DNA from: Sulfurimonas indica
GTDB taxonomy: Bacteria; Campylobacterota; Campylobacteria; Campylobacterales; Sulfurimonadaceae
Assembly (NCBI RefSeq): GCF_009192995.1
Contig: NZ_SDID01000007.1
Location: 1-64,000, forward strand
Reading direction: 5' to 3'
Length of the DNA stretch: 64,000 nt
Numbering within the stretch: position 1 is the first letter of the stretch; the number at the start of each line of letters is the position of its first letter. This document shows positions 8,185-9,999 of the stretch, piece after piece. The position numbers were made by a program, and so were the translations under genes. The notes under the pieces are model-generated. The model did no database searches and had not been told where the DNA came from. It saw only the letters and a program-made list of their open reading frames with translations.

Positions 8185-8613
8185 CTACTTCCTCAGCAGC
8201 GGATTTGCAAAGTCAATATACTCAACATCAACATTTTTTGCATAACGCTCAGCCATTGCAGAGACATGATAGTCGAGTCTATCTAAGAGATAGAGTTCCG
8301 GTTTTGTATACTTTGCCTTTGCCTCCTGAATATAGCTTTGCAAGTATGCAAGTGCTTCTTCTTCACTCTCAAAACATATGGAACTGATTATCTCTTGGAT
8401 TGCTTCATACGCATCACCACATGAAGATAAAAAGTCATAACTCAAGTCCATCGTTTTTAGATTATGGTGTGCCTTTGAAAAAGCAAAATGGTTATAGAGC
8501 ATACAACCTACAAAATACTCAATATCAGAAGGCTCAAACTCAGAGTATTGATTCTCCTCATCTGCAAAATATTTATGCCAAATATCTAATACTTTTGTTA
8601 TTTTACTATCCAT
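8185..8613 (-). CDS. Hypothetical acidic helical protein, 142 aa
   Basis: Unrecognised family; first gene of the operon with the TenI-like protein and the antiporter. It is a predicted mostly helical soluble protein with an acidic N-terminal half and no signal peptide. The ATG at 8613 is preferred. A GTG at 8640 is in frame but lies inside the left arm of the perfect inverted repeat. The likely promoter is TATAAT on the minus strand at 8697-8692, which would put the whole 28-bp hairpin at the 5' end of this mRNA. Confidence 0.72.
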   Translation of the reverse strand: MDSKITKVLDIWHKYFADEENQYSEFEPSDIEYFVGCMLYNHFAFSKAHHNLKTMDLSYDFLSSCGDAYEAIQEIISSICFESEEEALAYLQSYIQEAKAKYTKPELYLLDRLDYHVSAMAERYAKNVDVEYIDFANPLLRK

Positions 8614-8630: not shown

Positions 8631-8689
8631 TTATCACCACCCCAACAAACTAACTCAAGTTTTGAGTTAGTTTGTTGGGGTGGTGATAA
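8631..8689. repeat. Perfect 28-bp inverted repeat in a divergent promoter region
   Basis: Left arm 8631-8658 and right arm 8662-8689 are exact reverse complements, separated by 3 nt (GTT). It lies between the divergent hypothetical gene (start 8613) and the FliK-like gene (start 8725). A minus-strand -10 box (8697-8692) is just outside the right arm and a plus-strand -10 box (8710-8715) is 20 bp further out. The position excludes a simple terminator for either gene. It could be an operator, a cruciform, a 5' mRNA stabiliser or a mobile remnant. Confidence 0.95.
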
Positions 8690-8709
8690 GAATTATACAA
8701 AAAAAATGC

Positions 8710-8715
8710 TATACT
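8710..8715 (+). promoter_or_regulatory. -10 box (TATACT) of the FliK-like gene
   Basis: Lies 9 nt upstream of the ATG at 8725, so the mRNA leader would be at most about 2-3 nt. The perfect inverted repeat covers the region roughly 20-80 bp upstream of this box. Confidence 0.5.
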
Positions 8716-8724
8716 TAGCCTATT

Positions 8725-9999
8725 ATGATAGATATAAAGAGCTCAGGTAACAAAACTTTAAACATTGTTCTAGCAAATACGAACAAAGCGCTGCGTGAGG
8801 TGCTCAAAGATATAACACCAAAAGAGTTGGCACTACTAGCAAAAGCGAAAGACCTTGGCTCCGTTTTAGAGTCTCTTATAAAAAAAACTCCACAGGATGC
8901 GACACAAAACAGAGCACTGCTGACACTCTTAAAGAACAATCCAACGCTCAAATCTCTTGGAAATGTTACAACAAGCCTCAAAGAGCTTGCACAGCTTTTA
9001 GATACAAAGCTTCCTAAAGAGCCTTTACCTGCCTTGGAAAAGCTCCAAAAAATCCTTACAACTACACTGGGTAACAACACGATTATCACAGAAAAAGCAC
9101 TCAAAAACAGACTGGAAAACTCAGGCATTTTTTTAGAATCAAAACTCAAAAACTTCACAGCCCCTAAAATAGATTTACAAATGCAGCTAAAAGAGCTTGC
9201 CATTCAGCTGCAAGACTCTAAAGTACCTGTTGTAAAAACTCTGCTTATTGATATCAAAGCACTACTCTCAAGTGAACTTTTTACAACACCACAGCAAAAC
9301 AAAGCAATGCTCACGCAGTTGAGCAGTAAAGTAACAACGATATTGGATAAACTAGATAAACAGATACTTTCACATTTTGATAAAACACAGTATCCAAAAG
9401 ATATTCTTTTCACTAAAGAGACCAAAGAGTTGTATACACAACTCCAGCAGCTCAATAAACCTGAAAAACTCCTAAAGTCCACAAAAATTCAAGAGCTTTT
9501 TAGTGATGATTTTAAAGCTGTTATCAAAAAAAGTCTTGAAGAGTTAAATAGTACAAACCATCCCCAAAAATTAGAGCTTATAAAACAGTTAGATAAACTT
9601 TCCCTACAAATTGACTATTATCAACTGCTCTCCCATCTCTCCAATGCTTCGGCCATCTATCTACCTTACTATTTTGATGCTTTAGAAGATGGAAATATCA
9701 CACTTAAATCTGCAAAGAATGAAAAATTCTTTTGTGATATAGAGCTCCAGTTAAAAGAGTATGGTTTTTTGAGACTACGGCTTGGTATGTTTGAAAAGAA
9801 TCAGCTTAACATCAACATTGAGTGTGAGTCCGTTGAACTGGAAACAAAAATGAAAAGTAATATTGGGCAACTTAAAGGAAATCTTCTCTCTGCAGGAATA
9901 CATCCCAAAGATATCCGTTTTATCAAAAGTTCAAATGAAAATGCCCCAGCATATACGAATGAACAAGAGTTACAACTTGGTTTTGAGGTAAAAGCATGA
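8725..9999 (+). CDS. FliK-like flagellar hook-length control protein
   Basis: 424-residue soluble protein. A long helical, lysine/leucine-rich N-terminal two thirds is followed at about 320-420 by a region resembling the flagellar hook-length control C-terminal domain (Flg_hook), with ALEDGNITL, LGMFEKNQLNINIE and LLSAGIHPKDIRF segments. In flagellar assembly FliK-type proteins measure the hook and signal FlhB to switch export to filament proteins. The adjoining FlhX gene, overlapping by 4 bp (ATGA), strongly supports an export-switch role. The call is by pattern; sequence conservation of FliK is low. Confidence 0.7.
   Translation: MIDIKSSGNKTLNIVLANTNKALREVLKDITPKELALLAKAKDLGSVLESLIKKTPQDATQNRALLTLLKNNPTLKSLGNVTTSLKELAQLLDTKLPKEPLPALEKLQKILTTTLGNNTIITEKALKNRLENSGIFLESKLKNFTAPKIDLQMQLKELAIQLQDSKVPVVKTLLIDIKALLSSELFTTPQQNKAMLTQLSSKVTTILDKLDKQILSHFDKTQYPKDILFTKETKELYTQLQQLNKPEKLLKSTKIQELFSDDFKAVIKKSLEELNSTNHPQKLELIKQLDKLSLQIDYYQLLSHLSNASAIYLPYYFDALEDGNITLKSAKNEKFFCDIELQLKEYGFLRLRLGMFEKNQLNINIECESVELETKMKSNIGQLKGNLLSAGIHPKDIRFIKSSNENAPAYTNEQELQLGFEVKA

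Follow-up and report, generated by a model that had tools for sequence, protein, structure and literature searches.

The 64,000-nucleotide window analysed here (positions 1 to 64,000 of a Sulfurimonas indica contig) contains, between two divergent genes, a perfect palindrome which we read, with a probability of roughly 0.8, as an ultra-short MITE-like element without coding capacity that was inserted here recently. Its interpretation as a mobile, non-autonomous repeat is based on (i) two near-identical copies at unrelated loci of the genome, (ii) the lack of any copy in the relatives, including the rest of the genus, and (iii) a near-empty site in the closest relative; these observations support the suggestion of an earlier note on this DNA that the palindrome may be a miniature mobile relic. 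The repeat is species-specific, and its position immediately downstream of a promoter is accidental; it is not a shared genetic switch. The conspicuous perfect hairpin is thereby accounted for without inventing one.

Structure of the palindrome and its genetic setting

The arms of the palindrome are exact reverse complements of each other, as the earlier note had stated (Table 1). The whole repeat is 59 bp long with its TTA/TAA flanks counted in, and in a repeat search it could be extended to an inverted repeat of 31 nt at 97% identity. Its outer ends are TTATCACC and its inverted ends read TA-TCACCACCCCAACAAACTAACTCAA. The assembly is a 52-contig draft (in the loci used, nine short contigs appear as N), from which stretches totalling 1.12 Mb out of 2.1 Mb were sampled for inverted repeats. 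Within this 1.12 Mb, perfect tight-loop stems longer than 20 bp were formed only by this palindrome and its second copy, while the longest perfect arms found in random DNA (six 1-Mb sequences with the trinucleotide statistics of this genome) were 11-14 bp at a loop of at most 3 nt.

Table 1. Features of the palindrome region (window positions) and copies of two inverted-repeat families of the same genome (locus:positions)
Feature	Position	Strand	Remarks
Gene of 142-aa protein	8188..8613	-	first gene downstream of palindrome; no Pfam or NCBIfam family
Palindrome, left arm	8631..8658	+	TTATCACCACCCCAACAAACTAACTCAA
TA flank	8632..8633	.	candidate target duplication
Putative mobile core TCACC...GGTGA	8634..8686	.	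53 bp, TA on both sides; boundaries inferred from near-empty site of G020
Palindrome, loop	8659..8661	.	3 nt, GTT
Palindrome, right arm	8662..8689	+	exact reverse complement of left arm
TA flank	8687..8688	.	candidate target duplication
TATAAT, -10 of leftward promoter	8692..8697	-	kept in relatives without palindrome
TATACT, putative -10 of rightward fliK-like gene	8710..8715	+	kept in relatives
Gene of FliK-type flagellar hook-length control protein	8725..9999	+	Pfam Flg_hook
Family A	L139:2048-2325		contig C49
Family A	L162:9929-10208		contig C23
Family A	L157:10396-10684		contig C50
Family A, short form	L138:10532-10595		64 bp
Family B	L143:14958-15237		contig C49
Family B	L134:16694-16964		contig C1
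Family B	L189:3819-4046		contig end
Family B, short form	L158:19660-19720		61 bp

Both -10 boxes proposed earlier, the minus-strand TATAAT and the rightward TATACT, are present in the sequence, the latter only about 10 bp ahead of the ATG at 8725. The accompanying description of the neighbours as a transport operon and a flagellar switch pair calls for small corrections. On the leftward side, the 142-aa protein gene is accompanied by genes for a TMP-TENI (thiamine-phosphate synthase) protein and a CPA2 antiporter. Those on the rightward side encode the FliK-type hook-length protein and a short homologue of the FlhB C-terminus.

The second copy and the corresponding sites in relatives

A search of the whole genome for further copies, which the earlier note had recommended, yielded one, at C14:34764-34822, and the genome thus holds two dispersed copies (contigs C50 and C14), the minimum for a MITE. 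In other respects the repeat resembles MITEs in having terminal inverted repeats (two arms of 25-28 bp) and no coding capacity within a total of 53-59 bp. The second copy shares 97-98% identity with the first across the full palindrome and its arms are identical; its loop is AAT, so that in matching orientation (GTT vs ATT) one base differs, owing to which copy 2 forms a 29+1+29 palindrome. Both copies are flanked by TTA/TAA.

Copy 2 is flanked by the starts of two divergent genes, one for an ABC-F ATPase and the other for a GNAT acetyltransferase. A small lipoprotein gene is present in many congeners, either in the interval between these two or at the equivalent position upstream of the ABC-F gene; in L080, L083, L092 and L101, for instance, its product reads ...GCSAKEIN...DSIT...AFENSKDKSN-stop. 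In the genome studied, remains of this gene (CSAK...SN; L030:5690-5860, contig C14) lie upstream of the ABC-F gene: a start (ATGAAAAAACTCTCCTACTTTTTTATT) and an end (TGCAGCGCAAAAGACTCCTCCAACTAA, i.e., CSAKDSSN-stop) are all that is left of it on the two sides of the palindrome, so that copy 2 breaks up a lipoprotein gene in decay and is no promoter element. A separate deletion between CAAAAGA repeats seems to have produced the CSAK/DSSN join. The evidence of an empty site is indirect for copy 2, being provided by the intact lipoprotein gene of relatives; for copy 1, empty sites are found in G020 and other relatives.

For copy 1, 26 relatives in which the 142-aa protein gene and the fliK-like gene are still divergent neighbours were compared; in 18 of them the two start codons are 45-64 bp apart, vs 111 bp here, and the promoter block GCTAAGTATAGCAT..TTTTGTATAATTC is kept in G013, G125 and G027. 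By this gene, G020 is the closest relative (90% identity; the upstream neighbour differs); it reads GTATAATTCTTAAAAAACAAGGGTG at this site, which is exactly 56 bp shorter and thus nearly empty. The comparison of close relatives proposed in the earlier note revealed the divergent pair and its promoters, and no palindrome. Most simply, the 56-bp difference is made up of the 53-bp core (TCACC...GGTGA), a duplicated TA and a further A in an A-run; judging from the sequences a TA duplication at insertion is probable, and a 56-bp insertion without target duplication is possible.

The distribution of the repeat was surveyed more widely. No arm was detected at up to 3 mismatches in 26 in 135 genomes of the genus, its own being the sole exception (hence none in 134 congeners), or in 399 genomes of the order, and there was no exact match to an arm in 84,980 GTDB species genomes. 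The palindrome was not found in plasmids, and searches of phages gave nothing above chance, only partial matches with E of at least 1; a 19-base match in Salmonella phage 18-India was inspected and discarded, and the match to a viral contig (L077) involved a single arm and 19 bases, which is the chance level. With 20-mer ends at 3 mismatches, scattered single matches occurred across the genus, in similar number for the reversed control, and never as inverted pairs outside the genome studied.

Proposed mechanism of insertion and alternative explanations

The core of about 53 bp comprises almost only two inverted ends placed face to face (25-28 bp each, 1-3 bp apart) and flanked by TA. Such an element may have been derived from a longer one through loss of its interior, and a transposase recognising the inverted ends would have moved it in trans, duplicating TA. 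As the fusion point is common to both copies, the palindrome itself appears to have moved, and not a longer parent. It is conceivable, though we hold it only tentatively, that an element reduced to its bare fused ends (about 53 bp, almost entirely stem) is still able to transpose as such. If true, it would be smaller than the shortest Correia form (69-73 bp) and would provide a test of the minimum DNA needed by a transposase and of whether perfect hairpins transpose.

Several observations count against the mobile-element reading. There are two copies only, and no parent element was found. The TA duplication is not clean: TA is present on either side of both copies, but copy 1 requires one extra A in the A-run (56 = 53 + 2 + 1 bp), and for copy 2 there is no empty site in a close relative. 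Full-length elements or transposons with the ends of the palindrome, at up to 2-3 mismatches, were found neither in the draft genome nor in the genus. The DDE_3 (IS630/mariner type) and DDE_Tnp_1 families were not found in the assembly, and transposases of the IS630 and IS4/IS5 types were dismissed as movers, there being none in it. A Y1 (IS200/IS605-type) transposase fragment adjoining a divergent tnpB-like gene, apparently a decayed IS605-like insertion sequence, is located on contig C16 (L165:839-1782). This fragment is the only Y1 transposase, and its surroundings are unlike those of the palindrome; IS200/IS605 parentage was rejected, as no such palindrome lies alongside the two genes. A telomere-resolution (protelomerase) palindrome, considered on account of the length, is made unlikely by the two chromosomal insertions and the empty site.

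Since the insertion lies downstream of the -10 box of the 142-aa protein gene and upstream of its ribosome-binding site, the mRNA of this gene now probably starts with a hairpin. Transcription is predicted to begin at about 8685, inside the right arm, and the predicted 5' end folds into a stem of about 24 bp (-49 kcal/mol; z -9.4, about -9 to -11 across versions) that leaves the ribosome-binding site outside and single-stranded. The 5'-terminal hairpin foreseen in the earlier note is thus retained as a structural consequence of the insertion, and not as an evolved function. As a by-product it could protect the 5' end or be a substrate for RNase III, and this would be a fresh case of a tiny repeat rewriting the 5' end of an mRNA. 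That the hairpin instead evolved for regulation, as a 5'-UTR stabiliser or an RNase III site controlling the leftward operon (142-aa protein, thiamine-phosphate-synthase-like protein and cation:proton antiporter), would suit a transcript opening with this stem and a free ribosome-binding site. We consider it unlikely: no relative carries the palindrome despite the conserved promoter and gene pair, and a copy with identical arms is found in a decayed gene, where the layout is not comparable.

Much less probable still is a DNA operator or cruciform governing both divergent genes together. The palindrome does lie between the two promoters and extends to the -35 region of the rightward promoter, but relatives that lack it have retained the divergent pair and both -10 boxes, the second copy sits among unrelated genes and not between comparable promoters, and perfect arms of 28 bp are longer than any operator needs; the joint control of the two gene sets once suggested is therefore unsupported. 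An assembly or library artefact (fold-back or chimera) is about as improbable. Libraries can generate perfect inverted repeats and the genome is a draft, yet the two genes linked by the flanks of copy 1 are also neighbours in relatives, the arms are not duplicated from neighbouring sequence, and the palindrome is present at two loci with differing loops. The least probable explanation is a bidirectional transcription terminator, for which only the very stable stem speaks. Copy 1 is located upstream of both genes, the wrong place for a terminator as already remarked in the earlier note, and lacks the stem-then-U-run arrangement of intrinsic terminators, having no T-run after the stem on either strand; the terminator scan was empty, and the 3' sides of copy 2 read TAATAAAAAAG and TAAGTGAC. 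An Rfam scan produced only sub-threshold matches (eukaryotic microRNA-type and others), caused by the perfect stem.

Comparison with known repeats and with other inverted repeats of the genome

Among known systems, the Correia elements (CREE/NEMIS) of Neisseria, with 24-bp perfect terminal repeats, 5'-TA ends and target duplication, insert between promoters and genes as well as inside genes, and their mRNA hairpins are recognised by RNase III (PMC2229807, PMC2649163); insertions between promoter and gene are cut by this enzyme (PMC2649163). The palindrome is likewise a short non-coding inverted-repeat element. However, Correia elements measure 104-157 bp (69-73 bp in the shortest forms), have a core between the repeats and a different sequence, and occur in 100-250 copies, whereas the palindrome is almost coreless (1-3 nt between the arms), 53-59 bp long and present twice; as noted above, its arms have no exact match among the GTDB genomes. 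RUP of Streptococcus pneumoniae is a TA-targeted, non-autonomous repeat mobilised in trans by IS630-Spn1 (PMC2229807); it has 9-bp perfect terminal repeats and a known parent IS, in contrast to the present genome, in which no DDE_3 transposase was found. REPs are high-copy sequences of 20-40 bp with a GTAG or CGTC tag (PMC3733652). The palindrome recalls the REP/REPIN system with its RAYT transposases as far as short palindromes scattered between genes are concerned, but it has neither the tag (see its ends above) nor a high copy number, and the sole Y1 transposase of the genome is the fragment beside the tnpB-like gene.

Within the same genome, two homologous families of non-coding, MITE-like inverted repeats of about 272 bp, A and B, were distinguished, each represented by three copies in the half of the genome that was sampled; family B copies have TA on both sides. 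Each family also has a short form (Table 1) composed of the two ends and a middle of 13-16 nt. The families and the palindrome have in common inverted ends, short forms near the length of the palindrome and, in family B, the TA flanks; they differ in that full-length copies exist for the families and none for the palindrome. The ends are not significantly similar (12 of 25 positions match; p = 0.06 in the same register and 0.23 over offsets), and common descent is not claimed. The short forms may nevertheless serve as a precedent for collapse to a palindrome. Since the 59-bp palindrome falls into the same size class as the short forms of 61-64 bp and consists of ends only, we infer that it represents the short version of a third family, with a long form and a transposase that this assembly lacks. 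This suggests that in this genome MITEs collapse time and again to palindromes of fused ends, about 60 bp in length.

The short form of family B lies directly at a TATAATA box, much as the palindrome does at its -10 box. A single 62-bp imperfect palindrome (L167:18425-18486) has 24-bp arms with one mismatch and a 14-nt loop. In other members of the genus, GTACCGGTTCC-type repeats, possibly REP-like, occur upstream of the orthologue of the 142-aa protein gene (GGCACTAAAGTACCGGTTCC in L118, GAAGTACCGGTTCC in L009). In G018, the orthologues of this divergent pair are separated by an inserted relative of family B (L022:1205-1492), and by this comparison the interval of the divergent pair is one that has been struck at least twice in the genus.
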